From an uncultured Gammaproteobacteria bacterium (GTDB lineage Bacteria; Pseudomonadota; Gammaproteobacteria; DRJJ01): 64,000 nucleotides of DNA. Where the stretch lies: contig CAMYJU010000003.1 in assembly GCA_947258795.1 (NCBI GenBank), positions 62,001 through 126,000 of the forward strand, read 5' to 3'. Below are positions 1,837-45,023 of the stretch, in pieces. The translations under genes were made by a program, and so were the position numbers. Under the pieces are notes generated by a model. That model worked only from the letters and a program-made list of their open reading frames with translations. It had not been told where the DNA came from and made no database searches. Position 1 is the first letter of the stretch. The number at the start of each line of letters is the position of its first letter.

Positions 1837-2718
1837 ATGAAGAACAAATTACGCTTAGTTAGCCTGCTGCTACTTATTGTGGCAGTTTCTGGTTGTGGTT
1901 TAACGGCTAAACAAGTTGTCAAAACTCAATCGTTCGGTACAGCAACATCAAAAATTGGGAAATTAGGCGAAGAGGAATTTATCAATATTCGAAATGGAAT
2001 AATAGAAATGAACAAGGAGCTAATTTCAATCGATAACACTAAAACCGCGAGCAGTTTAAAATTCGATCGGCCTACCTCTGCAGAAGCTACCGTAACTAGA
2101 GTTGCTGCAACGAAGGCACTTAAATTGTACGGTGAATTGCTGGTACAGCTGGTAACAGAAGATCGAACGGAAAATCTTCAAATAGTTGCCAATTCATTAA
2201 TAGATAATACAACAGCTGCCTTAAATAGGGATCTTACGGATGGTAAAAAAGGTGCGTTAAACAAACTTATCGCTGGCCTTGGATCATTTTTAATAGAAAA
2301 GAAGAAAGCTGATGCGGCAAAAGAAATTATCCCGGCATATGAACAACCGGTTAATGAGCTTGCGGATTTGTTAAGTGATGATTTCTCTCTGGACGAGGGA
2401 TCACTTGGTTTTCTGAAAGCATATGACACAACTGCGAAACGGTTAAAAAATGCTTCAATGAAGTTGATAAACGCGGGTGATCGGTATTCTGTACTAGAAC
2501 GAGATCGCGCTGTTTATGCTTTTATATTGTCAGAGAAAGCAATTTCTCGTGCGACTGAGATTAGTAAAAAAGCAAAAAATGTAATAAGCAACCTTAAAAA
2601 GGCTAACGCTGAACTAGTAAAGGTTATCAAAGATAAAGAGTACTCTACTGACGATATCAAAGTATACGCTAAGCAGATGCAAGAGTTGCTGAATATGTAT
2701 CAAGTACTAGCTTATTAA
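1837..2718 (+). CDS. Unknown lipoprotein
   Basis: A 293-residue protein of unknown function. A lipoprotein signal peptide is clear: positively charged start MKNKLR, a hydrophobic core and the lipobox VSGC with the acylated cysteine at residue 20. The rest is rich in Lys, Glu, Ala, Leu and Asn and looks mostly helical, with no cysteines or recognisable catalytic motif. A good ribosome-binding site (AAGGAGAG) precedes the ATG. The gene is clearly richer in A and T than rsmG or parA, which suggests horizontal acquisition. Nineteen bases separate its stop codon from the start of the small coiled-coil gene, so the two are probably co-transcribed and may work together in the cell envelope. Confidence 0.8.
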   Translation: MKNKLRLVSLLLLIVAVSGCGLTAKQVVKTQSFGTATSKIGKLGEEEFINIRNGIIEMNKELISIDNTKTASSLKFDRPTSAEATVTRVAATKALKLYGELLVQLVTEDRTENLQIVANSLIDNTTAALNRDLTDGKKGALNKLIAGLGSFLIEKKKADAAKEIIPAYEQPVNELADLLSDDFSLDEGSLGFLKAYDTTAKRLKNASMKLINAGDRYSVLERDRAVYAFILSEKAISRATEISKKAKNVISNLKKANAELVKVIKDKEYSTDDIKVYAKQMQELLNMYQVLAY

Positions 2719-2737
2719 AATTATACGGAGACTCATC

Positions 2738-3043
2738 ATGTCAAGCTTAGGCAAAGAACTTCACGATACAATACGTAATCTTGAGAAAATCAGGGATATG
2801 CAAGACCCGCCATCTGATAATGTTATAGAAACGCTAGATAAATTGTATGAGCAACAAATTGAGTTAATTGAAGCTGCAATCAACAGAGCCACAGAGGAAT
2901 ACAGGAAAGCAACTGATGCAATGAAAGACGCGGCAAACAAAACAAAAGAGGCTCTAGATGATTTGACCAAATTAGAACAATCTATCAGCAAAGTAGCAAA
3001 CGCTATTGGGAAGGTGACAGAACTTCTGTCAAAAGTGGCCTAA
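2738..3043 (+). CDS. Small coiled-coil protein of unknown function
   Basis: A 101-residue protein with no cysteine, tryptophan or signal peptide. It is dominated by Lys, Glu, Ala, Leu and Ile in a heptad-like pattern, from about residue 38 (YEQQIELIEAAINRA) to the end (IGKVTELLSKVA), so a long coiled coil is likely. A ribosome-binding site (ACGGAGA) precedes the ATG. It lies 19 bases after the unknown lipoprotein gene and shares its AT-rich composition. I do not recognise the family. A cytoplasmic partner or regulator is possible, but no function is supported. Confidence 0.7.
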   Translation: MSSLGKELHDTIRNLEKIRDMQDPPSDNVIETLDKLYEQQIELIEAAINRATEEYRKATDAMKDAANKTKEALDDLTKLEQSISKVANAIGKVTELLSKVA

Positions 3044-3199
3044 CAAGCACACTAACTCGGACGGCAGGATCCAAGCCAGTCAGCTTTGCAGCTTTAGGCA
3101 GCCACTAATGCATGGTGATAGATATTTTCGACGGTTGTGATCGACAAGCTCGAGAAAATACTCAAAATGGGTATACAGATTGTCGCCTGACCAGACGGC

Positions 3200-4042
3200 C
3201 TACCAGTTAAAATTTATGCCGACGAGTCCATAGGTCAGGTCACCACCACTGGAGGCCTCAGTTTGACCCGCCTCCAGCGTCAGTATCCAGTTGGTCTGGC
3301 TGAAATAATTGAGCCTCAGGCTGGTAACGTCACTGTGTTCCTCATCTACGGCCGATTCAATACGGGTACGTTCAATACCAATTCTCTGGTGTGGAAAGTT
3401 ATATGCAAGCTCATAGGAGTAGTAGTAATCGGTTAGTCCCCGGGTATAGAGCAGGGCCTGCAATGAGAGTACACGGCCTGCGGCTGGATTAGTAAATATT
3501 CGGGTATCGATAGAGTAATCATATTTTTTTCCGCCCACAGAGATTTCGAACGGATCAAAACCATAGTACCAGGCATCTACACCAACTGTTGTGCTATGAA
3601 ACGAACGTGATACGCGCCTGTTGTTTCTGGCCTGACTATATATCTTGATGTTTCGGTATTCAGGGCTTAAAAGAAACTGCCAGTTGTCAGTTTTAAGACC
3701 GATGTTGATATTCAGGGTATCAGCCAGTATGCGTTGATCAGTACCCCAGCGCTCATAGCTGGCTCCGAGATCCCAGGCAGTATTTAATTGATAGTTATAC
3801 GATACGTTGTAACCGTTTGCACTCAGATCTGTTGGTATCTCCGGGACACGGGTGATGTCTACCCCGATAGCAAATAGATGGTCATTATTAATGACTGTCA
3901 ATTCGGAATAGTAGCGGTCAGTATCGGCATCATCGCTTGCCGCTTCCAGGTACAGTGAATATTCTGTTTCGTCAGCCTGTATCAATGTAATGTTTAAGGC
4001 CGAAAACAGCAGGATCAAAAAATTTATATTCGATTTATTCAT
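3200..4042 (-). CDS. Putative outer-membrane beta-barrel protein
   Basis: A 280-residue protein starting with a probable signal peptide (MNKSNINFLILLFSALNITLIQA). The mature part has many alternating polar and hydrophobic stretches rich in Tyr, such as YNVSYNYQL and YYYSYELAYNF, and it ends in an aromatic residue (GINFNW). Both are typical of outer-membrane barrels folded by the BAM complex. Its ATG overlaps the stop of the upstream methyltransferase gene in a TAATG junction, so translation is probably coupled. Why a barrel should be tied to a tRNA-modification pair is unclear. No substrate can be inferred. Confidence 0.7.
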   Translation of the reverse strand: MNKSNINFLILLFSALNITLIQADETEYSLYLEAASDDADTDRYYSELTVINNDHLFAIGVDITRVPEIPTDLSANGYNVSYNYQLNTAWDLGASYERWGTDQRILADTLNINIGLKTDNWQFLLSPEYRNIKIYSQARNNRRVSRSFHSTTVGVDAWYYGFDPFEISVGGKKYDYSIDTRIFTNPAAGRVLSLQALLYTRGLTDYYYSYELAYNFPHQRIGIERTRIESAVDEEHSDVTSLRLNYFSQTNWILTLEAGQTEASSGGDLTYGLVGINFNW

Positions 4043-4620
4043 TATTGTTTTGATTTTGTTATGCCTATCCAGACTGGCGCAGGCCTGTTACCGGTTTCCG
4101 TAATCAACTGCTCTACCCTGTAGTTTGTCGCAGACAAACCTTTGCTCCAGCGTAAGACCTGCCCGGTTTCAAGCTTACCATGTTCATGGCCGGGATAGGC
4201 GACAATACTGATCACGCCGCCGGGCGCAAGTAAGGTGCAGGCCTGATCCAGTGCCTTCAGGGTGGTTTCAAACTGTGTGGTCAGTCCATGACAACCGCCG
4301 GGCAGGTAACCCAGGTTGAACATGATCGCACTGACACCGCCGTGATACTGTACAGGGATACTCGCCCGCATATACTGGTGGCCTTGCTTTAACAGGATGA
4401 GCTGGTCTGAATGGCCGGCCTGTTGCAGACGGCTGCGAACCTGGTCGATTGCCTTTGTCTGGATATCAAAGGCGTATACACGACCCGTTTTGCCGACCTG
4501 CTCAGCAAGGAAAAGTGTGTCATGACCATTACCGGCAGTTGCATCAATAACGGTATACCCGCGCCGGATATGATGCGCTATAAATTCCCTGGCATGATCG
4601 GTCAGCCGTTTTTCAGACAT
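4042..4620 (-). CDS. mnmM: YtqB/MnmM-like SAM-dependent methyltransferase
   Basis: A 192-residue class I methyltransferase of the family called rRNA_methylase or YtqB. The SAM-binding motif I is DATAGNGHDT at residues 26-35, and the family-typical FNLGYLPGG lies at residues 101-109. In Bacillus subtilis, YtqB was renamed MnmM and converts nm5s2U34 to mnm5s2U34 in tRNA; assignment of the same activity here is inference from sequence resemblance and context. I chose the ATG at 4620 because it begins the conserved domain. Upstream in-frame sequence is the antisense-like shadow of the oxidoreductase gene. The start overlaps the end of that gene by eight bases, and the stop overlaps the start of the barrel gene. 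Confidence 0.82.
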   Translation of the reverse strand: MSEKRLTDHAREFIAHHIRRGYTVIDATAGNGHDTLFLAEQVGKTGRVYAFDIQTKAIDQVRSRLQQAGHSDQLILLKQGHQYMRASIPVQYHGGVSAIMFNLGYLPGGCHGLTTQFETTLKALDQACTLLAPGGVISIVAYPGHEHGKLETGQVLRWSKGLSATNYRVEQLITETGNRPAPVWIGITKSKQ

Positions 4621-5692
4621 CAGGACAGCGCTCCTGGTAACGCCGGATGTCGGATTCGGGATCAAGTGGTATCTGACGGGTAAGCAGCTTGATAAAGGCT
4701 GAAACAAAATAAGGGATGGTGAGGCTGCCCTTTGAACCAAAACCATTAAAGATTGCCAGTGATTCAAATTGTGGATGGATACCGACAAACGGCATGCGGT
4801 CGCGGGTTGCGGGACGAACGCCGGCCTGATGTGACAGAAGGCTGAATGGTCTGGTCGTGTTGCGGCTTGCATTGAGTTCATCCAGTAGTTGCATGCCGCT
4901 GTCGTGATCGGGTTCCGGGTTGTCGCGACCCGGGTGCATACTCGCACCGAATCGGTAGCGACTACCCTGCAGTGGCAATAACCAGTGTCCGAAACTGAGT
5001 ATGGCGTCGTTTTGTATGTCCGGCCCGCTGACAGTGAGGATATCGCCATGCAGGGCCTGCATCGGCAACCAGTTAAACCAGGGGTTTTTCAACATCCGCG
5101 CACCCTCACAAAAAATAACCTGTCTAACCTGATAATCCTGCCATTGCACATGGTCGCTTGTGATGACCAGATCGTCATATCGGATTACTGTGTTCAGTAT
5201 CAGCTGATGTTCATGGAAATAGCTTGCGAGCGTGTCAATGCAAGTGACTGTATCCAGGTATCCTCCTTGACGAATATAGAAACCGCCGAGTTCGTGTCTG
5301 ACAGGAAAATCCTGCGTATCAGGCCCGAACGGTCTACCGAGATATTTATTAAATCGCGCCTGATTATGGCGTTTGTCATAGTAATGTTGCTCCTGTGTAT
5401 TTCTGAACAGTCGCGCAATCCTACGTGGTTGAAATACCTGAACAGAAAAGACCTGCTCGATCTGGTTGTACAGTTGTGAGGCCGCATGCAGTTGTGGGTC
5501 GATCTGCGCTGACAATGCCAGGCGCAGACCGGTCACCGGATTGATCATACCGGCAGCAACAGGAGATGCCCCGCTGTATTCCGGATCGCGGGTTATTCTG
5601 ATATTAAATCCGCCCAGGTGGAGTTGCCAGGCCAGCAGGCTGCCGGCCAGGCCCTGCCCGACAATCAGAAAATCCAGTTCAGTCTGTGACAT
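4613..5692 (-). CDS. DAO-family FAD-dependent oxidoreductase, MnmC(o)/MnmL-like
   Basis: A 359-residue flavoprotein of the D-amino-acid oxidase family. The dinucleotide-binding loop GQGLAG is at residues 12-17, and the C-terminal half carries GVRPATRDRMP and NGFGSKG, both similar to the oxidoreductase half of MnmC. MnmC(o) removes the carboxymethyl group of cmnm5s2U34 to give nm5s2U34. The next gene, overlapping by eight bases, encodes a MnmM-like methyltransferase that would complete mnm5s2U34. I chose ATG 5692, where the FAD domain begins; an earlier in-frame start would add 29 residues unlike the family. A glycine- or sarcosine-oxidase-like activity cannot be excluded from sequence alone. 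Confidence 0.8.
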   Translation of the reverse strand: MSQTELDFLIVGQGLAGSLLAWQLHLGGFNIRITRDPEYSGASPVAAGMINPVTGLRLALSAQIDPQLHAASQLYNQIEQVFSVQVFQPRRIARLFRNTQEQHYYDKRHNQARFNKYLGRPFGPDTQDFPVRHELGGFYIRQGGYLDTVTCIDTLASYFHEHQLILNTVIRYDDLVITSDHVQWQDYQVRQVIFCEGARMLKNPWFNWLPMQALHGDILTVSGPDIQNDAILSFGHWLLPLQGSRYRFGASMHPGRDNPEPDHDSGMQLLDELNASRNTTRPFSLLSHQAGVRPATRDRMPFVGIHPQFESLAIFNGFGSKGSLTIPYFVSAFIKLLTRQIPLDPESDIRRYQERCPDV

Positions 5693-6432
5693 ATGTTGCG
5701 AAATCGTTTGCGAAATCCTGACTATATCACGTGACGAATGGTGGAATCGCAACGTCTCCCTTAAGACTGTCGATGACATCGGCCTGACAACAAAATATCA
5801 CCATTCGCATATCAAACCTGTACGGCGTACAGCGATGGCCTACTCTTGAGTGCAGTACCGAACCATTCAAGTGCTTGCAGCCGCTGCTGCAGGAAATGAG
5901 TAGATATTACCGAGGTTCGTGACATCAGAGTGAGCACATCGGTTCGGGTAATAGCATACACAAAAATAGAGAATTATCGCCTGCGCGTTTGTACATACAG
6001 GTGTTCTGCATCGGAGAGAAATTTTTTGGAGGTCTTGCTATAGTTTTGCCAACTGAGAACATAATCCTGGATGACGATCAACGTGATGTATAGGCTGGCG
6101 ACCGTAAGACGAGGGGCTAGCCGAGCGGCACGGTATCGGGTATCCGCAGGCATTCCTCCTGATTCCCCGCTGCATGCCGACAATTCGCCTATGCCATCGT
6201 CAACGGTTTATCATTGTAATCGTAGATTGCGGACCTCAATGACCCAATAAAGGGATGGGAAACAATATGTCGAGGTATGACGCGTTGAGGATCTTATGGT
6301 TCAATACCTCTATGTAAACGGCGCTGAGCACGGAAGCGGCAATTCCATCATTATTCGCGGTATGATGGGCTATTATTCCGGACACACAGGAAAAGTTGGC
6401 CTTTTCAGGCCGGCCACAACAGGAGACACTGC
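5693..6432. other. Intergenic stretch without a convincing gene
   Basis: This 740-base region lies between the divergent oxidoreductase operon and ackA and should hold both promoters. Short open frames are present, the longest a 69-codon minus-strand frame at 5974-6183, but none has a good ribosome-binding site or a recognisable product. I see no tRNA, no transposase remnant and no strong terminator. It is long for a gammaproteobacterial spacer, so it may contain decayed sequence. Confidence 0.5.
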
Positions 6433-7632
6433 GTGATCAAGGTGCTGGTCATCAACTCGGGCAGTTCCTCCATCAAGTACCAGCTTTTCAATATGGATGG
6501 AGAGGTCGTTCTCGCTTCCGGTGTGGTCGAGCGTATCGGTGAAAGACATGGCCTGCACAAGCACCGGTTACACAGGGACAATGACATAATTGAAAGTCGC
6601 TACGAGCAGTGTGTTAGCGACCACCGCGCCGGCTTGTCGCGCATCGGTACGCTGTTGCGCGAGTCCGGTGCAGTTAGCGAGCTATCGGAACTGTGCGCGA
6701 TCGGGCATCGCGTGGTACACGGTGGTGAATCCTTCCGGGAGCCTAGCCTGATCAACAGCGAGGTACTACAGCTAATTCGGGACAGGATTCCGCTTGCGCC
6801 CCTGCATAATCCGGCCAATGTGATGGGTATCGAGGTCGCCCTGCAAGAGGCACCGCACATACCCCAGGTTGCTGTATTTGATACGGCTTTCCATCACTCC
6901 ATACCCGCGCATGCGTATCGCTATGCCCTGCCCGAGTGGCTATACACCGAACACAGCGTGCGCCGTTACGGCTTTCACGGCACCTCGCACCGTTACGTGG
7001 CTAAACAGGCGGCTTCCTGTCTCGGAAAACCACTGGAGTCCCTCAACCTGATTACGCTGCACCTGGGCAATGGCGCCAGCGCTGCGGCGATCGCTCAGGG
7101 TCAAAGCGTGGATACCTCAATGGGCATGACACCGCTCGAGGGACTGATTATGGGAAGCCGTTGCGGTGACATGGATCCGGCTATCCACTTCTACCTGGGC
7201 CGTAGCACCGGCCTGGACTACGATGAGATAGAGTCGCTACTCAACAAGGAGAGCGGCATGAAAGGGATCTGCGGCGCCAACGATATGCGAGAAGTACACC
7301 GTCTGGCCGATGCAGGAGAACCTCGGGCCAGGCTTGCGCTGGATATGTATTGTTACCGCATTAAAAAGTATATCGGCGCCTACTACGCTGTACTCGGCCG
7401 GCTGGATGCTGTCGTGTTTACCGGAGGTATCGGTGAAAACGATGCATGGGTACGCGAGCAATGTTGTACGGGTCTGGAGGCGCTGGGGATCAGACTCGAT
7501 GCAGAGAAGAATGCCGCTGCCGACCGGGAGACCCTCGACATACACAGGGAAAGCTCTTCGGTCTGCCTGCTGGTGATCCCAACCAATGAAGAACTCGAAA
7601 TTGCACTGCAAGCCGTAAGCTGCATAAATTAA
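6433..7632 (+). CDS. ackA: Acetate kinase
   Basis: AckA interconverts acetyl phosphate plus ADP and acetate plus ATP in the cytoplasm. The 399-residue product has the family's full length, the N-terminal phosphate-binding motif NSGSSSIKY (residues 7-15), the middle motif GFHGTSH and the C-terminal FTGGIGEND. The start codon is GTG at 6433 with an AGGAG ribosome-binding site seven bases upstream. It lies divergently from, and near, the phosphoketolase gene at 8672-11065. That enzyme makes acetyl phosphate, so together they would turn sugar phosphates into acetate and ATP. Confidence 0.96.
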   Translation: MIKVLVINSGSSSIKYQLFNMDGEVVLASGVVERIGERHGLHKHRLHRDNDIIESRYEQCVSDHRAGLSRIGTLLRESGAVSELSELCAIGHRVVHGGESFREPSLINSEVLQLIRDRIPLAPLHNPANVMGIEVALQEAPHIPQVAVFDTAFHHSIPAHAYRYALPEWLYTEHSVRRYGFHGTSHRYVAKQAASCLGKPLESLNLITLHLGNGASAAAIAQGQSVDTSMGMTPLEGLIMGSRCGDMDPAIHFYLGRSTGLDYDEIESLLNKESGMKGICGANDMREVHRLADAGEPRARLALDMYCYRIKKYIGAYYAVLGRLDAVVFTGGIGENDAWVREQCCTGLEALGIRLDAEKNAAADRETLDIHRESSSVCLLVIPTNEELEIALQAVSCIN

Positions 7633-37138: not shown

Positions 37139-37738
37139 CTAGCCACTCGCGGTCAGTTCCTGGTTTTTATCGCGCATCTGCTTGAGCAGGCCATCAATAC
37201 CATCCTTTTTAACGATTTCCTTGTAGGTGCTGCGATAATTACTGACCAGGCTGACCTCTTCAATAATGACATCATAGACCAGCCACTTGTCGCCTGTCAG
37301 TAACAGCTTGTAGTTGATTGGTATGTTGGCTGTCTCTGTGACGATTTGGGTATACACGGTGGCCTTGCGTTTTTTTAACTTCTCACGCATAAACTCGACC
37401 TTCTCATTGGTGTAGGCCTTGATCCGGTCAAGATAGGTGAACAGCAGCAGTTCCGAGTACAGGTCTATAAATTCCTGTTTTTGTGTGTCAGTAGCCTTCT
37501 TCCAGTTGGTGGCCAGGGTGCGCTGGGCCATCGCGCGGTAAAAAAAACGCTTGCTGATCACTTCCCTGAGCAGGGGTTCTTTCTGCGCCCACCCGGCATC
37601 GGTGCGCAGTGTGGCCATGACTTCATCAACCGTGACCTTCATCTGGTCTGTCGGATTACCGGCATGGGCCTGAATACTGAAACCCGCCAGGGCAATTAAA
37701 AGTGACAGAATAAATGTAAACTGCTTTGGGCGTCTCAT
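37139..37738 (-). CDS. mlaC: Periplasmic phospholipid-binding protein MlaC
   Basis: MlaC carries phospholipids through the periplasm between the outer-membrane MlaA and the inner-membrane MlaFEDB complex. The 199-residue protein starts at ATG 37738 with a signal peptide (FILSLLIALAGFSIQAHA) and has the family pattern of a helical and beta domain that encloses lipid tails, including the FFYRAMAQRTLATNWKKAT and LLFTYLDRI segments. It is the last gene of the mla operon here, 13 bases after mlaA. Confidence 0.92.
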   Translation of the reverse strand: MRRPKQFTFILSLLIALAGFSIQAHAGNPTDQMKVTVDEVMATLRTDAGWAQKEPLLREVISKRFFYRAMAQRTLATNWKKATDTQKQEFIDLYSELLLFTYLDRIKAYTNEKVEFMREKLKKRKATVYTQIVTETANIPINYKLLLTGDKWLVYDVIIEEVSLVSNYRSTYKEIVKKDGIDGLLKQMRDKNQELTASG

Positions 37739-37751
37739 AGGGCTCGTCCTG

Positions 37752-38576
37752 CTACTTGTGTTCATCAATGATCGCTGCACGGTGCTGGGCATAGGCATCA
37801 CGTACGACCAGATACGGGTCTAGTGATTGCTCACGTATCGCGTCGTAAGTATCTTTATCAATGGAGATTTCATTGATCGTTTCGACAGCACGGATAGCGA
37901 CATAGTTTGTATTGATCTGTTCATCATTGTTGATCAGATAGGTTTTCGGATCAAGGTAGAAATCGACCAGATTGCCAATTCCGTCACGTGCGCTGCTTGG
38001 ACCGAGAATCGGCAAAACCAGGTAAAATCCGGGTCCTGCGCCCCAGTGTCCCAGGGTGGTGCCAAAATCGATCTCCTGACGTGGCAGCTGATAATGATCC
38101 TTGCCAACATCGTGGAAACCCGCAATGCCCACCGTTGAATTGATCAGGAAACGCCCGGTTTCGTTGTAGGCATCCTTGCCCCTGCCCTGTAGAACGGCAT
38201 TGACGATACGGATAGGTGCCTTCAGGTTGTAGTAAAAGTCTGAAATGGATACACGGATCGGTTCCGGGGCGATATAGCGCCAGCCGCGTGCGATCGGTTT
38301 CAGTAAGATGATATAGAGCTTGTCGTTGAACCAGAATATCGCGCGATTGAACGGCTCGATCGGGTCGGAGATTTCGACATCTTCTTCTTCACCGAGCAGG
38401 GCATCGAGTTCGGCATCGGACATGGTGCCGGCTTTATCATTCTGCGCAAGCAAAATGTGTGTATGCCTGTTATTGTTAGTCGTGCCATACCCGGTGTTCT
38501 GATCCGGTCTGGTGTTCTGTTGGCCGCATCCGGCAAGCAGGAAAGTGACGAGTATACTGGCAAGTATTTTTTTCAT
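37752..38576 (-). CDS. mlaA: Phospholipid-transport lipoprotein MlaA (VacJ)
   Basis: MlaA is the outer-membrane lipoprotein that removes misplaced phospholipids from the outer leaflet with a porin. The 274-residue product has a lipoprotein signal with lipobox LAGC and acylated Cys at about residue 17. The family core (EPFNRAIFWFNDKLYIILLK, near 80; GHWGAGPGFYLVLPILG, near 170) is present. It is longer than E. coli VacJ because of a charged N-terminal linker of about 60 residues. In E. coli mlaA is elsewhere in the genome; here it is in the mla operon and overlaps mlaD by one base (TAATG). Confidence 0.94.
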   Translation of the reverse strand: MKKILASILVTFLLAGCGQQNTRPDQNTGYGTTNNNRHTHILLAQNDKAGTMSDAELDALLGEEEDVEISDPIEPFNRAIFWFNDKLYIILLKPIARGWRYIAPEPIRVSISDFYYNLKAPIRIVNAVLQGRGKDAYNETGRFLINSTVGIAGFHDVGKDHYQLPRQEIDFGTTLGHWGAGPGFYLVLPILGPSSARDGIGNLVDFYLDPKTYLINNDEQINTNYVAIRAVETINEISIDKDTYDAIREQSLDPYLVVRDAYAQHRAAIIDEHK

Positions 38577-39043
38577 TAGTCTTTACTCTTGCTTTCGAAA
38601 ATATATTTACTGATTAACTCCTCGATGACGATGGAAGATTCGGTTTCCGATATTTCATCACCGTGTTCCAGCATGATATCTGATCCGCCCGGCGTCAGTT
38701 TGATAAATCGGTCGCCGATGATGCCGGCTGTACGAATCGAGGCAATGCTGTCGTCTGTCAGCTGGATATCGTGTTCGATATTCAAGACCACGATAGACTC
38801 ATAATCTTCCCTGTCCAGTGAAATCGTCTTGACGGAACCGACCTTGACGCCGGCAATCTCCAGCGCGGCACCCTCCTTCAGGCCGGTTGAAGACGAAAAA
38901 CGTGCAATAACTTCATAACCAGGTTGTTTGAACAAATTGGTCTCGCCCAGTACGACGGACAGATAGCTGGCCGTAACGATGCCCAGAATTACAAACAGCC
39001 CGACCATCAGTTCTATATTGGGTGTAATACGCTTGACGCTCAT
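38576..39043 (-). CDS. mlaD: MCE-domain protein MlaD
   Basis: MlaD is the periplasmic hexameric ring protein anchored by one N-terminal transmembrane helix (IELMVGLFVILGIVTASYLS). The MCE domain covers residues about 40-120 (SSSTGLKEGAALEIAGVKVG). The 155-residue length is normal for Mla-type proteins. Its stop overlaps the mlaA start. It lies 31 bases after mlaE. Confidence 0.94.
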   Translation of the reverse strand: MSVKRITPNIELMVGLFVILGIVTASYLSVVLGETNLFKQPGYEVIARFSSSTGLKEGAALEIAGVKVGSVKTISLDREDYESIVVLNIEHDIQLTDDSIASIRTAGIIGDRFIKLTPGGSDIMLEHGDEISETESSIVIEELISKYIFESKSKD

Positions 39044-39074
39044 TTATTATTCTCCATCACAGGTGTAGCGTTGC

Positions 39075-39878
39075 TTACAGCATGATCAGTCCAACAACAT
39101 AATCAAGCGCCAGGACGCTGACCGAAGACATGACCACAGCGTTTGTCGTTACCAGGCTGACGCCCTCTGCACCGAATACGCCACTGCGATTCTGATGCAC
39201 ATAAAAACCCTTGTAGGAACAGATCCAGACGATGATAACGCTGAATGTCAGTGGTTTGACCAGGCCCAGACGCAGGTCGGCCCAGTCGACATTGGTGATC
39301 ATGCCCTGAATGAATGCACCAGAAGGCACGTCATTGTTGATGACCGCAACCAGGTAGCCGCCGCAGATACCGACTACATCAAACACGCAGGTCAGCAGCG
39401 GCAGTGAAAAGATAGTGGCTATAAATTTCGGTGTAATCAGGAAACGATACGGGTCTATACCCATGCACTCCAGCGCATCGATCTGTTCGGAATTACGCAT
39501 AATGCCCAGCTCGGCGGTCATCGCTGAACCAGCACGTCCGATGACCATCAGTGCAGCCAGTACCGGCCCCAGTTCCTGGATCAGGCCCAGCGCCGTGGCT
39601 GCCCCGATCAGTTCCATATTGCCGTATTGCTTGAGATTGTAATAGGCCAGCAGTGCCAGCACCATGCCGGTGAACATACCGGTTACTATAATCACCAGTA
39701 GTGAACGCGCACCGATAAAATAGATCTGGCGTAACACGGCAGTGAAGCGTATTGGCAGAATAAAAATATTACCCAGGCAATGCACCAGGAAGATGATCAT
39801 GGACCCGGTCAGTCTGGTGATATAAATCGATTCAAAGCCGATTTTCTCGATCAGGCGAATCGGTGTTGCCAGTAACAT
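39075..39878 (-). CDS. mlaE: ABC transporter permease MlaE
   Basis: MlaE is the inner-membrane permease of the phospholipid transporter. The 267-residue product has about five or six hydrophobic segments. The conserved ELGPVLAALMVIGRAGSAMTAELG segment near residue 105 includes the family's coupling helix, followed by EQIDALECMGIDP. It follows mlaF after 78 bases. Confidence 0.94.
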   Translation of the reverse strand: MLLATPIRLIEKIGFESIYITRLTGSMIIFLVHCLGNIFILPIRFTAVLRQIYFIGARSLLVIIVTGMFTGMVLALLAYYNLKQYGNMELIGAATALGLIQELGPVLAALMVIGRAGSAMTAELGIMRNSEQIDALECMGIDPYRFLITPKFIATIFSLPLLTCVFDVVGICGGYLVAVINNDVPSGAFIQGMITNVDWADLRLGLVKPLTFSVIIVWICSYKGFYVHQNRSGVFGAEGVSLVTTNAVVMSSVSVLALDYVVGLIML

Positions 39879-39956
39879 GATTTGTTCCTTATAAACTGTT
39901 GCCAGGATATGTTCCGGATTATCCGCATCCTGGCGTCGGTGTCTTTGTTGTTACAG

Positions 39957-40784
39957 TCAGCCCTCTCTGGTCAGGCGTTGCAGATAGGCCTCCGGGTCAA
40001 TGTCCTCGTCTTTGGGCTTGCGGTTCAACAGGTTCTGTACACGCTCATTATCACAGTTTTTCACGTCCTCGACACTGCCGGTAATCAGTATCTGGCCCTG
40101 GTCAAGCACGGTGATACGGTCGGCAATCCTGAACGCGCTGTCAAGTTCATGGGTGACGATAACAATAGTCATGCCCATTGCATCACGCAAACGCAGTATC
40201 AGTTCGTCCAGTTCTGCTGACACCACCGGATCGAGTCCGGCCGATGGCTCATCGAAGAACAGCAGTCTGGGATCCATGATAATCGAACGCGCCAGTGCGA
40301 CGCGCTTGATCATGCCGCCGGACAGTTCTGACGGCATTAAATCCTCGAAACCCGCCAGGTTGACAACCTCGAGTTTCATGCGCGTCATGATCTTGATGGT
40401 CATGTCATCCAGACTGGTGTGTTCGTACAATGGTAACTGGATGTTCTCCGCTACGGTCATGGAGCTGAACAAGGCACCGCCCTGGAAAGCGACGCCCATG
40501 TTGCGGCGCATTTCATACATTTGTTTTTTACTCAGCTGGGTAATGTCCTGGCCCAGCATGTAAATAGACCCCGAGGATGCCTGGTGCAGTCCGAGCATAT
40601 GCCGCAGCAGCGTGGTCTTGCCGGAACCACTACCGCCCATAATGACCATGACTTCGCCCTTGCGGACATTGATGTTTACATTGTGCAGGATTTCCCGGTC
40701 ACCAAAGTGAGTGACCAGGTTTTCGACCCGGATAACATGCTCTATGTCCTTGTCCTGGGTGCTTACGTCCGGCATACGTGTCAT
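39957..40784 (-). CDS. mlaF: ABC transporter ATP-binding protein MlaF
   Basis: The 275-residue ATPase drives MlaE. Walker A is GGSGSGKTT near residue 51, the signature is SGGM in ELSGGMIKRVALAR near 154, and Walker B is LLFFDEPSAGLDP near 175. The C-terminus has an extension after the ATPase core of the sort that binds MlaB in E. coli. The gene begins 17 bases after the STAS gene, so both are in one transcript. Confidence 0.95.
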   Translation of the reverse strand: MTRMPDVSTQDKDIEHVIRVENLVTHFGDREILHNVNINVRKGEVMVIMGGSGSGKTTLLRHMLGLHQASSGSIYMLGQDITQLSKKQMYEMRRNMGVAFQGGALFSSMTVAENIQLPLYEHTSLDDMTIKIMTRMKLEVVNLAGFEDLMPSELSGGMIKRVALARSIIMDPRLLFFDEPSAGLDPVVSAELDELILRLRDAMGMTIVIVTHELDSAFRIADRITVLDQGQILITGSVEDVKNCDNERVQNLLNRKPKDEDIDPEAYLQRLTREG

Positions 40785-40801
40785 CTATCCAGTATCTTTA
40801 T

Positions 40802-41125
40802 TCAGTTCTGTATTTCGTCAATATTGCTATAAATCGGGAATACGCTGTCCAGGCGCGCCAGCTTGAGAACCTGCATTGCCGCATTGCTGATATTCAGCAG
40901 CCCAAAGGATTGGCCGGCCTTCTTGCTTAGCTGATAGCCTTCCACCAGGCTGGCGATACCCGAGCTGTCGATATAGCTGACATCGGACAGATCGATCAAC
41001 ACATTTTGCTTGTCTTTCAGGGTGTTCAGTATTTCCTCACGGGCCCTGGGCGAATAGTGCAGATCCACTTCGCCTATCAGTGAAATGATGCTATGACCGG
41101 CTTCGTTACGTTTCTTGATTTCCAC
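40802..41125 (-). CDS. STAS-domain protein (anti-anti-sigma / MlaB-like)
   Basis: A 107-residue STAS domain. The phosphorylation-type motif is YIDSSGIASLVEGYQL near residue 54, which has the Ser pair of SpoIIAA/RsbV proteins; the candidate serine is about 56. In E. coli the STAS protein MlaB binds MlaF and is needed for transport. This protein occupies that role by position, 17 bases before mlaF, yet is preceded by an RsbW-like kinase and a SpoIIE-type phosphatase. So it may act as MlaB, as a phosphorylated antagonist in a partner switch, or as both. No other STAS gene is in the operon. Confidence 0.88.
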   Translation of the reverse strand: MEIKKRNEAGHSIISLIGEVDLHYSPRAREEILNTLKDKQNVLIDLSDVSYIDSSGIASLVEGYQLSKKAGQSFGLLNISNAAMQVLKLARLDSVFPIYSNIDEIQN

Positions 41126-41149
41126 AACTCTCTCTCTTGATAGTTCTGA

Positions 41150-41575
41150 CTAGCAGTTGGTCAGGTTGATTTTCATCATCAGTACATTGCCATAACCATC
41201 GGATTGGCCGAGATAGCTGACCTCGGTCATAATTTCACGTATAAAATGAACGCCCAGTCCGCCCGGACGGATATCTTTCAGGTCCCTGGGCTTGATGAAT
41301 TCCGGGTCCATGGTTGGTGCATGGTCCTTGACCTGTATCACCAGCGTGTCACCCTCGCTGTACAGTTCCAGTGCAATATCGCGCCTGCCCTGGTAATCCT
41401 CCGGGTAGGCATGCTGAATGATATTCATACAGGCTTCGTTAATCGCCAGGATAATCCGGTCTACGGTTTCGACACAGTCGGTCAGTTTAAGGGTGGCACT
41501 GCGGATCCTGTCCCGTATCTCCCTGAGATTGCAGGAATCGGCCGGTATTGACAGCTCCAGCAGGGCGTTACGCAT
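41150..41575 (-). CDS. RsbW-like anti-sigma serine kinase
   Basis: A 141-residue histidine-kinase-like ATPase of the anti-sigma (SpoIIAB/RsbW) type. The N box is INEACMNIIQHAYP near residue 48, and GGLGVHFIREIMTEVSY near 105 is the second nucleotide-binding box. The usual DxGxG motif is changed to KDHAPTMDP, a variant common in phosphatase-linked members. The expected role is to bind and phosphorylate the STAS protein encoded 24 bases downstream. The start overlaps the end of the phosphatase gene by eight bases. No sigma factor gene is next to it. Confidence 0.9.
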   Translation of the reverse strand: MRNALLELSIPADSCNLREIRDRIRSATLKLTDCVETVDRIILAINEACMNIIQHAYPEDYQGRRDIALELYSEGDTLVIQVKDHAPTMDPEFIKPRDLKDIRPGGLGVHFIREIMTEVSYLGQSDGYGNVLMMKINLTNC

Positions 41576-43268
41576 TGGGTGTCCTGTTTTCCAGCATTAC
41601 CAGCGTAATGTCGTCCTTAAGCGTATCTGATTGAGTCATAAACTGACTGAACAGTATATTTATCAGCTCATCCGCTTCCCGATCATGCAATTTGTGTAGC
41701 AGCTTTGCAAGCCCGGAAACGCCGAGCACCTTGCCTGGTGCGTATTCACCCTCAATCAGGCCGTCAGAGAACAAATACAGGCGAGCGTCGTTCAGCGCCA
41801 GCGTTTCAATTTCATATTGGCAGTCTGGCATGATGCCCAGTGGTGGCCCGGATGCACCCAGTTGCTTCACTTCACCTTGGTCCGCGATTAGCAATGCCGG
41901 CGGATGGCCGGCATTGACCAGCTTTAGCTGGTCGTTGGCCGGGTCATACAGGCCGCAGGTCAGGGTGACAAACATACCGCGGACCATGGTCTCGGCCAGC
42001 TCGCTGCTGATCGTTGCCAGCAGTCGCGCCGGATTAGTCTCATTTTTACCGAGACAGCGAAACAGGCTGCTGGTTTTGGCCATCATCAGTGCGGCAGTAA
42101 TGCCCTTGCCGGATACATCACCGAGGTTGAAATAGATCCTGCCATCCGGCAGTTTGAAATAGTCGTAAAAGTCACCGGACAACTCATGCGCAGACTGGTT
42201 GTAACCACTTACCGGAAAGGAAGGGTCCTGTTGCGCCGGTAACAGACCGGTCTGGATTTCACGTGCAATCTGTAATTCCTGGTCCAGTGCGGCCGACAGG
42301 CGGTCCTGTTCAGCCAGTGCGGATTCAAGCTTCCAGGTCAGTTCCTGGTAGCTCATGTTTTCCTCGGCCAGACGCTTGTTGGCTTGTGTCAGGATGTCTT
42401 CGAATTCCGGTTGCTGGCTGATGTTCAGGCCCAGTGTCTCGGCCGAACGCTCGACCTGTTCGGGCATCGCCGCCAGACAGGCGTCGGCCTGTTCCTGTTT
42501 CAGGCCAATCAGCCTGTCTGCAAGAAACTGGTACCGCCGCAGGCATTCGCCGGTTGCCCTGGCGGTGAAAACCGCTGTCATCCAGTCACCCAGGTAGAGT
42601 ACCTGGCACATGCTGGTGCCCTTATCGTTTAACTGCTCGGTATTACAGTTGTGGTGGGACCCGAGCACATTGCTCAGCTCCTCGGGCAGCGACCAGGTCT
42701 GACACAGTAACTGCAACAGGTTGTCGTGAGTAATGCCGAATACCTGCTGTTCCCGTTGATAGCGCTGTTCAGGGTCCAGCTTGCGCAGATCCTCCCAGCT
42801 TTTTGCCTTGGCAGGCTGTATGAAGCACATCACCAGCAGACTGAAATCCTGGAGCAACCCGGCAGTGAAGCATTCATCGGCATCCAGGCCGGTTTGTTCC
42901 GCCAACAGCCTGGCGGCGACCGCATGACGCAGGGTGTCTTCCCAGAATCCGCCTATGTCGAAGTCCGGTAAGGCATTGTGACGTACCGAGTCGCGCACTG
43001 ATATACACAAGACCAGGTTGCGTAACGCGCGTTGTCCGAGGATACTGACCGCGCGGTTTACCGACTTGATGTCGGACGGCATGTTGAAATAGGCGGAATT
43101 GACGATGCGTAGCAGTTCCGTTGACAGGACAGGGTCCTGGGCAGCCAGTTCGGCCAGCTGTTTATTATTGACTTCCTTGCGCGCGCAGGCACGCAGGATC
43201 TGCATGGCCGCCTGGGGGGGTGCCGGCAGATCGGCAGGTCGTACGTTAAAGTGTTCCTTGTACCCCAT
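41568..43268 (-). CDS. HDOD domain fused to SpoIIE/RsbU-type PP2C phosphatase
   Basis: A 566-residue protein. Residues about 15-215 form an HDOD domain (ILRACARKEVNNKQLAELAA, VNSAYFNM, AVSILGQRALRNLVL); the metal-binding residues of true HD phosphodiesterases are not obvious. A probable coiled coil (about 290-345) links it to a C-terminal PP2C-like domain from about 350. The latter has the metal-binding GDFYDYF, GDVSGKGI, FSDGLIEG and DDITLVML motifs, so phosphatase activity is likely. It would remove phosphate from the STAS protein in response to a signal sensed by the HDOD part. The gene is first in a transcript that continues into mla. Confidence 0.92.
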   Translation of the reverse strand: MGYKEHFNVRPADLPAPPQAAMQILRACARKEVNNKQLAELAAQDPVLSTELLRIVNSAYFNMPSDIKSVNRAVSILGQRALRNLVLCISVRDSVRHNALPDFDIGGFWEDTLRHAVAARLLAEQTGLDADECFTAGLLQDFSLLVMCFIQPAKAKSWEDLRKLDPEQRYQREQQVFGITHDNLLQLLCQTWSLPEELSNVLGSHHNCNTEQLNDKGTSMCQVLYLGDWMTAVFTARATGECLRRYQFLADRLIGLKQEQADACLAAMPEQVERSAETLGLNISQQPEFEDILTQANKRLAEENMSYQELTWKLESALAEQDRLSAALDQELQIAREIQTGLLPAQQDPSFPVSGYNQSAHELSGDFYDYFKLPDGRIYFNLGDVSGKGITAALMMAKTSSLFRCLGKNETNPARLLATISSELAETMVRGMFVTLTCGLYDPANDQLKLVNAGHPPALLIADQGEVKQLGASGPPLGIMPDCQYEIETLALNDARLYLFSDGLIEGEYAPGKVLGVSGLAKLLHKLHDREADELINILFSQFMTQSDTLKDDITLVMLENRTPNA

Positions 43269-43300: not shown

Positions 43301-44269
43301 TTAGTCATCGAGGGCACCACCGCAGCTGCTGCCCTGTCCGGCTGTACATCCATAACAGTGACCGGCTACCCGGATCGGGTGTCCTTTCAGAACTCGAGGC
43401 TCCAGTTCACTGATATGGGTGGGTCTGGTTGTTGTATCCATACCTATCGGCAGGTCCAGCATCTGGTTGAAGTCACAGTCGTAGACATAACCGCGCCAGT
43501 CGATACTGATTAGGCTGCGACACATCACCTCGGGCAGGTTTTGCGGCTGGTGCGCATTGCGTAGCGTGTCCATATACTGCCTGAAGCGGCCTTTTGATAT
43601 CAGGGTACTGCCAAAACGCTTGATTGGCATGTTGGCCAGTGCGAACAGCCGGGTAAATTCGACATGGTATTGCTCGCGCAGGCGCTGACGATAGTCCTGT
43701 TCCAGAACGGCCTGGTCGGGAGGCAGTGTATCGCCTTGCGGGTTGTATACCAGGCTGAGTTGTAACGGGCTGTCTGACAGGCCGTAGCCCAGTGCATTGA
43801 GCGTGCGCAGCGAGCGCAGACTGGCCTGAAACACCCCCTTGCCACGCTGCCGGTCTACATTCTCTTCCAGATAGCAGGGCAGTGAGGCAATGATCTGCAC
43901 CGAATGACTGGCCAGAAAGGCAGCCAGATCCTCTTGTCCCGGTTCCTGCAGGATGGTCAGGTTGCAGCGATCGATCACCTCCAGCCCCTGTTCCCGCGCC
44001 TGGGCCACCAGTTGTCTGAAATGCGGGTTTAGCTCGGGTGCACCTCCGGTCAGGTCCAGTGTCTGCGCACCGGCTTTTACAGTGAAATCAAGAACATGGC
44101 TAATGGTCTTCCAGTCCATCGATTCTGTACGGTTGGGTCCGGCATTGACATGACAATGCAGGCATTGCTGATTGCAACGGTAGCCCAGATTGACCTGTAC
44201 GGTTTGCAGTTCCTGTCTGATGATGGACGGAAAATCGGTATCGACCAGTAGTGGTAGTGTCGCATGCAT
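43301..44269 (-). CDS. arsS: ArsS-like radical SAM enzyme (arsenosugar biosynthesis)
   Basis: A 322-residue radical SAM protein. The iron-sulfur cluster motif is CNQQCLHC near residue 32, followed by NAGPNRTESM and LTGGAPELNP. The C-terminal DUF3641 part ends in CYGCTAGQGSSCGG. These features match ArsS, which works with the methyltransferase ArsM to make an arsenosugar precursor. No arsM gene is in the window. The start is ATG 44269. It lies 32 bases upstream of the phosphatase gene on the same strand, so co-transcription with the downstream partner-switch genes is possible. Confidence 0.9.
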   Translation of the reverse strand: MHATLPLLVDTDFPSIIRQELQTVQVNLGYRCNQQCLHCHVNAGPNRTESMDWKTISHVLDFTVKAGAQTLDLTGGAPELNPHFRQLVAQAREQGLEVIDRCNLTILQEPGQEDLAAFLASHSVQIIASLPCYLEENVDRQRGKGVFQASLRSLRTLNALGYGLSDSPLQLSLVYNPQGDTLPPDQAVLEQDYRQRLREQYHVEFTRLFALANMPIKRFGSTLISKGRFRQYMDTLRNAHQPQNLPEVMCRSLISIDWRGYVYDCDFNQMLDLPIGMDTTTRPTHISELEPRVLKGHPIRVAGHCYGCTAGQGSSCGGALDD

Positions 44270-44474
44270 GGTATTTGGTTTTCCTGCCGGGCTGTTATAT
44301 GGTTTGCTAGGTGCGGTGGATGGAACGTTTTGTCAATATATAGACAAAACGGGCCAGTAAGGTTCCAGTTAGCATCGGGATATCGCACATAGACAGGTAA
44401 CAGATACTGGCTGTAATAGTCTTCCTGCCCTGATCTTAACAGGGCGGATCGGTTTATCAATAGGCGTGCCGCGT

Positions 44475-45023
44475 ATGGCAGAACCCTGGACAATACCTGA
44501 AAACTGGCAGGAGCACTCGTTACGCCTATCCGCATGGCGGGCTGCGCCACAGTCCAGCCAGGTGGCCAGGCAGAACCTGGCCGGTATCAGGACTTTATTG
44601 CAAAGGTATTATCAACAGGGCCGGGACACTTCCCTGTTAAAAATACTGGAAATGACCGGACGTTACTGGCTGGATGATTTTCAAGCGGCTGATTTTGACA
44701 ATATGATCTGTACCCTGGGCAATCAGAAATACTGCGCACTGGCGCGGCTGGTGTATGGTCAATTATTGATTAGTTTCAAATGTGATGGGGCCCATGCGAT
44801 GCTGGCCGCAGGCTTCCTGCGTATTCAGCCATGGCTGGAGCCGGCTGAGTATTTTACCCTGATGAAGCGGCATCAGCAGCTGCTGGCACTGAGGCTTGGG
44901 CGTAAAACACCCATAGCCCTGACTTTGCCGGAGTTACTTGATGAGGCGGCCGTAGTACGCCAGTTACAAGGCAGACAGCATGCCAGGCTGTCATTGGGGC
45001 CAGGCACAGATACACTCGGTTAG
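44475..45023 (+). CDS. Hypothetical protein
   Basis: A 182-residue protein of unknown function, helical, with no signal peptide or membrane segment. I prefer ATG 44475 over the in-frame GTG at 44466. It has two cysteines and several Trp. No recognised motif was found. It is divergent from arsS and precedes a BASS transporter gene by 32 bases, but whether either is functionally linked is unknown. Confidence 0.65.
   Translation: MAEPWTIPENWQEHSLRLSAWRAAPQSSQVARQNLAGIRTLLQRYYQQGRDTSLLKILEMTGRYWLDDFQAADFDNMICTLGNQKYCALARLVYGQLLISFKCDGAHAMLAAGFLRIQPWLEPAEYFTLMKRHQQLLALRLGRKTPIALTLPELLDEAAVVRQLQGRQHARLSLGPGTDTLG

Follow-up and report, generated by a model that had tools for sequence, protein, structure and literature searches.

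Gene content of the operon

The window analysed here is a 64,000-nucleotide stretch of DNA from an uncultured gammaproteobacterium (assembly GCA_947258795.1, contig CAMYJU010000003.1, positions 62,001 to 126,000), and it contains an operon in which the genes of a putative partner switch run directly into those of an Mla-type phospholipid transporter. A preliminary description of this DNA had placed eight genes in order on one strand; all eight are indeed on the minus strand, each with the expected Pfam family. The switch part comprises an HDOD-SpoIIE (PP2C-type) phosphatase of 566 residues (41568..43268; HDOD 2e-48, SpoIIE 5e-43), an RsbW/SpoIIAB-type serine kinase of 141 residues (41150..41575; HATPase_c_2 1e-21) and an RsbV-class STAS protein of 107 residues (40802..41125; STAS 6e-19). 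The codon of its candidate phosphorylation site, S54, which aligns with the phosphorylated serine of SpoIIAA, occupies 40964..40966. The transporter part begins with mlaF (39957..40784; Pfam ABC_tran and a PDB fold match), whose product is an ATPase belonging to a distinct subclass and extended at its C terminus, where it ends in DPEAYLQRLTREG. It continues with the permease gene mlaE (39075..39878; Pfam MlaE 1e-71), mlaD for an MCE-domain protein (38576..39043; TIGR04430 OM_asym_MlaD above cut-off, Pfam MlaD), mlaA for an outer-membrane lipoprotein (37752..38576; Pfam MlaA 5e-67) and mlaC for a periplasmic shuttle (37139..37801; Pfam MlaC 4e-41).

The 8-base overlap between the phosphatase and kinase genes and the 78-base gap between mlaF and mlaE are as first described. 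The other junctions measure 24 bases (kinase-STAS), 17 bases (STAS-mlaF) and 31 bases (mlaE-mlaD), while mlaD and mlaA overlap by 1 base. With its GTG start as listed, mlaC would overlap mlaA by 50 bases; translation more likely begins at an in-frame ATG near 37738. A scan of the operon for promoters and terminators gave no clear internal signal: promoter-like sites were at the level of shuffled sequence, and terminator-like sites were above it, yet scattered over both strands.

The STAS protein, its kinase and its phosphatase

Against the RsbV-class family model NCBIfam TIGR00377 the STAS protein scores 68.5 bits (cut-off 53.45), whereas against mlaB_1 it reaches 25 bits, far below the cut-off of 90. 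Likewise, a profile search of the PDB returned RsbV/SpoIIAA-class chains at E values of 1e-17 to 1e-9 and MlaB chains at 3e-3. By sequence and fold, this is an RsbV/SpoIIAA-class protein and not an MlaB ortholog. The RsbV-like phosphorylatable serine pointed out earlier is S54 of a DSSG motif, at the SpoIIAA phosphosite, whose equivalent in E. coli MlaB is Thr52 (PMC7367683). Residues D53, S54, S55, G56, A58 and E62 are invariant in 58/58 STAS orthologs of the survey described below. We rejected the serine of a DSxG motif as stand-alone proof of phosphorylation: the canonical MlaB proteins of the window genome and of a second genome, G011, also read DSAG. The serine alone says little because the former has no kinase gene in its ~3.6-kb locus.

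The kinase has the hallmarks of the RsbW/SpoIIAB class, namely the GHKL fold, the N-box Glu/Asn and the G-rich box. Its nearest PDB match is RsbW (6m36, 7e-18), and the catalytic residues E47 and N51 are kept in 57/57 relatives. The phosphatase carries the metal-binding Asp motifs of the SpoIIE/RsbU type, with PP2C motifs retained in 48-51 of 52 relatives; it is predicted to act on the STAS protein by removing phosphate, and its N-terminal HDOD domain is probably the signal input. Kinase, phosphatase and STAS protein are thus encoded together, as in partner-switching systems, and in three loci (L018, L019 and L063) HDOD, SpoIIE and RsbW form a single protein of ~710 residues.

The kinase and STAS protein of the window were modelled with AlphaFold2 as one chain, read through the kinase stop codon, which creates an artificial linker of ~9 residues. 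The 257-residue model, for which no interface error estimate was available, has a predicted template-modelling score (pTM) of 0.77, and its two domains match the SpoIIAB/RsbW and RsbV folds, respectively. The score suggests that the kinase and STAS domains dock in a defined arrangement.

The transporter and its MlaF subclass

MlaF, MlaE, MlaD, MlaC and MlaA all score above the Pfam cut-offs. Among the NCBIfam models, MlaD passes the equivalog cut-off and MlaF, MlaE, MlaA and MlaC match Mla models below the Mla-specific cut-offs. The best PDB fold match of MlaF is the MlaF subunit of MlaFEDB (6xbd). Its tail, modelled as a terminal helix at residues 264-272, contains a near-invariant Y..RLT motif that is kept across the subclass, with Y and L at i,i+4, the same spacing as in the tail of E. 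coli MlaF (PMC7367683). Judged by its sequence, the operon probably encodes a phospholipid ATP-binding cassette (ABC) transporter, MlaFEDAC, together with a switch that sets its activity.

Other Mla, STAS, kinase and sigma factor genes of the genome

We denote the window genome G000, its contigs by C numbers, other genomes by G numbers and loci by L numbers. G000 has three MlaE genes: that of the window operon, one in a canonical mlaF-mlaE-mlaD-mlaB set on C18 (L002, G000:C18:54340-57972), and a STAS-MlaE fusion with its own ATPase on C2. The C18 operon lacks an mlaC between mlaD and mlaB, and its MlaF has a handshake-type tail, FHYPAADYFEDL. The genome has one copy each of mlaA and mlaC, both in the window operon; therefore, two inner-membrane complexes may share one shuttle.

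The STAS gene had been called the only one. This holds for the operon but not for the genome, given the mlaB on C18 and the STAS-MlaE fusion on C2. A true mlaB elsewhere in the genome had been named in advance as half of what would speak against phosphorylation control of the transporter. It does exist, and it is accompanied by its own handshake-type MlaF. We also considered the window STAS gene as a displaced mlaB of G000, and rejected this idea on account of the separate canonical mlaF-E-D-mlaB set.

Two RsbW-class kinases have a strong full-length match in the genome, one in the window and one in a second partner-switch cluster, L006 (G000:C6:8392-11712), which encodes a SpoIIE phosphatase with a cyclic-nucleotide-binding (cNMP) domain, a STAS protein with an SSAG motif, and RsbW. 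No sigma factor matched in the window, in agreement with the earlier remark that none is near, and the nearest matches on the contig are ~60 kb or more away; the locus does not have the make-up of a sigma-controlling module.

Conservation of the module

An initial scan yielded 14 gammaproteobacterial loci, and in 13 of them Mla-type genes come after the STAS gene. We then surveyed 369 gammaproteobacterial genomes, with STAS orthologs taken at E <= 1e-28 (the next matches lie near 1e-19) and the MlaF subclass at E <= 1e-100 against A2, both thresholds being picked after seeing the data. One partial match among those near 1e-19, in G070, was counted as an ortholog; its locus has the full module. 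Orthologs of the STAS protein are present in 58 of the 369 genomes. For 57 of these loci the adjoining sequence is available, and every one has the kinase gene next to the STAS gene in the same orientation. The search for this gene order in relatives, proposed in the preliminary description, found the module conserved, with Mla-type transporter genes directly downstream of the STAS gene in 53/58 loci, window included. A chance arrangement is excluded because the module is conserved over 33 families.

The transporter genes themselves vary. The majority layout is E-F-long MCE-PqiC-like lipoprotein, others being the F-E-D-A-C order of the window, E-D-A-C accompanied by an mlaF on the opposite strand (L109-L112), two permease sets with one mlaF (L065-L067) and mlaF alone (L069, L070, L083). 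The partner that is well conserved is MlaF, at 58-70% identity, while the permease types are ~31% identical to each other. In L065-L067, the single mlaF lies between an Mpc-like E-F-D-lipoprotein set and mlaE-D-A (with mlaC in L066 and L067), without a second mlaF, which looks like one ATPase shared between two transporters.

Beyond the Gammaproteobacteria, G374 and G493 also carry the module; E-F-D-lipoprotein accompanies it there, and the MlaF tail is the one seen within the class. L237 (G465, 2632-6937), from a family that is likewise outside the class, is an outlying relative of the module and encodes, in order, MlaE, an ABC ATPase, a long MCE protein, a possible lipoprotein rich in repeats, RsbW and STAS. 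Its ATPase looks degenerate, with no recognisable Walker A motif.

Two neighbours recur beside the module. A radical S-adenosylmethionine (SAM)/DUF3641 gene lies immediately upstream of the phosphatase gene in several families (window 43301-44269, minus strand; L019, L021, L061, L063, L066, L068, L073). A family of small proteins without a Pfam match is found next to the module in the window (44466-45023, plus strand), in L018 (6321-6830) and in L058, L059 and L073, and in L061 its gene overlaps the STAS stop codon. This family may be a further component of the module.

Co-inheritance of the STAS module and MlaF

The MlaF subclass occurs in 59 of the 369 genomes, in 56 of them together with the STAS protein (Fisher p about 5e-60; 33 families). 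Since linked inheritance alone gives part of this co-occurrence, the unlinked cases weigh most. In G043, G184, G119 and G342 the module and mlaF lie on different contigs, and both are retained. In G022 and G305, mlaF follows the STAS gene while mlaE-D-A-C is located elsewhere without an mlaF of its own; in these two families mlaF has parted from the permease genes and remained beside the STAS gene. On the STAS tree, whose forks are poorly resolved, permease types interchange and the STAS-MlaF pair is kept.

The exceptions are few. At the thresholds used, the STAS protein occurs without this MlaF in G214 (a short contig) and G313, and the MlaF subclass without the STAS protein in G234, G066 and G011, where mlaF sits at the edge of a contig. 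An RsbW match at 1e-10 is absent from all three of the latter genomes; G234 and G066 thus lack the kinase as well as the STAS gene. In G234, G066 and G119, a few conserved sites of the MlaF helical subdomain and tail have changed, within the background range.

Taken together, the co-inheritance of kinase, phosphatase, STAS and MlaF makes it very probable that reversible phosphorylation of the STAS protein raises or lowers lipid transport. The preliminary description had proposed transport control through a phosphorylated MlaB-like STAS protein. Comparative genomics strongly supports its core idea, through the near-perfect co-occurrence (also of unlinked genes), the adjacent kinase and the invariant residues; the label MlaB-like has to be dropped.

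Proposed mechanism and alternatives

Mechanistically, we favour an Mla transporter under a STAS partner switch in which MlaF, instead of a sigma factor, would be the second partner, and we regard this reading, with the phosphorylated STAS protein as the off state, as likely to be correct. The unphosphorylated STAS protein would bind MlaF at its helical subdomain and C-terminal tail, as E. coli MlaB does, and assembly or ATPase activity would depend on this binding. The RsbW kinase would bind the STAS protein and phosphorylate S54, a residue of the face expected to meet MlaF. The phosphorylated, or kinase-held, STAS protein would then leave MlaF and transport would drop. In turn, the HDOD-SpoIIE phosphatase, on a signal perhaps received through HDOD, would strip the phosphate and restore transport. 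We infer the STAS-MlaF binding, the phosphorylation of S54 and its sign, and by analogy with E. coli it is most likely that the unphosphorylated form supports MlaF: there, the phosphomimetic change T52E in MlaB weakens its binding to MlaF (PMC7367683), and with T52A the ATPase activity is abolished (PMC5016091).

Several points weigh against this proposal. RsbV is closer to the window STAS protein than MlaB is, and the latter may therefore be a poor guide to how the window protein binds; the kinase could also act on other partners; G313 has the STAS protein and kinase with no MlaF of the subclass; and the STAS protein is not indispensable to this MlaF, since G234 and G066 have the latter without the former. 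In E. coli, moreover, extra MlaF bypasses MlaB, which leaves room for a role in stabilisation instead of switching (PMC7367683).

That last observation, together with the stabilisation of MlaF by E. coli MlaB (PMC7367683) and the two genomes that retain MlaF without STAS, fits a constitutive MlaB-like assembly factor whose kinase and phosphatase tune its amount or stability with no acute switching. Yet practically all STAS genomes keep the kinase, the phosphatase and S54, which an unregulated scaffold would not need, and we consider this option very improbable. Nearly as improbable to us is the opposite sign, with a STAS protein that inhibits MlaF and a phosphorylation that frees the transporter; the sign is not readable from sequence, but in E. 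coli MlaFE needs its STAS partner both to assemble and for its ATPase activity (PMC5016091).

A different target of the switch, such as the sigma factors, anti-sigma factors or enzymes controlled by other partner switches, with co-expression explained by a shared role of switch and transporter in envelope stress, is unlikely. In its favour, the RsbW/RsbV class is known above all for controlling sigma factors, 11 sigma-70 region 2 matches occur in the genome, and the module lies away from mla genes in L058, L061, L082, L091 and L099. However, there is no sigma factor nearby, 4/5 genomes with unlinked modules retain the MlaF subclass, the STAS gene remains beside mlaF when mlaE moves away, and MlaF stays conserved while the permease type changes.

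Returning to control of MlaF by the STAS protein, we tentatively extend it to the relatives: one MlaF under a widespread phospho-STAS switch may serve interchangeable Mla-type and Mpc/Pqi-type permeases, shared by both in L065-L067, so that the switch would set total intermembrane lipid traffic.

If the proposed control is true, partner switching, known mainly from transcription, controls an ABC transporter ATPase and outer-membrane lipid balance, with a bearing on the barrier function and drug tolerance of Gram-negative bacteria.

Comparison with known systems

The window module resembles RsbU/RsbW/RsbV and SpoIIE/SpoIIAB/SpoIIAA in its SpoIIE-type phosphatase, its RsbW-type kinase with catalytic Glu/Asn, its DSSG STAS protein and the folds of these proteins, but it differs in its HDOD input and in its output, apparently the ATPase of an ABC transporter in place of a sigma factor. 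Gammaproteobacterial partner switches with a non-sigma output are known from Pseudomonas, namely SiaABCD and HsbR-HsbA-HsbD; they act on diguanylate cyclases or motility regulators and not on a transporter.

On the transporter side, the commonest downstream set (MlaE, MlaF, long MCE protein, PqiC-like lipoprotein) has the layout of the Brucella Mpc (Mla-Pqi chimeric) system. However, MpcE has its STAS domain fused to the permease, whereas here a free STAS protein is linked to a kinase and a phosphatase (PMC12436622). E. coli MlaFEDB shares the transporter family, a small STAS protein (expected here to bind MlaF), the Tyr/Leu spacing of the MlaF tail and a Ser/Thr at the SpoIIAA phosphosite; its MlaB, in contrast, comes last in the operon, belongs to another STAS subfamily and has no known kinase or phosphatase. 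Phosphorylation of E. coli MlaB at Thr52 was proposed in two studies with no kinase named, and one of them called the regulation of active MlaB an open question (PMC5016091, PMC7367683). The operon supplies a candidate kinase-phosphatase pair for such phosphoregulation of Mla, and with the genes of both lying next to those for the STAS protein and the transporter, the question can be put to a direct test.

The regulation had been presented as not known to be described. A link between Mla/MCE transporters and partner switching appeared in the open-access papers searched, subscription journals being mostly outside this coverage, only as that E. coli hypothesis, so phosphoregulation of MlaB was already an idea in the literature (PMC5016091, PMC7367683), while the combination seen here was not found. 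As judged from the genes, the parts are of known kinds, and what appears to be new is a partner switch with an ABC transporter ATPase as its output.

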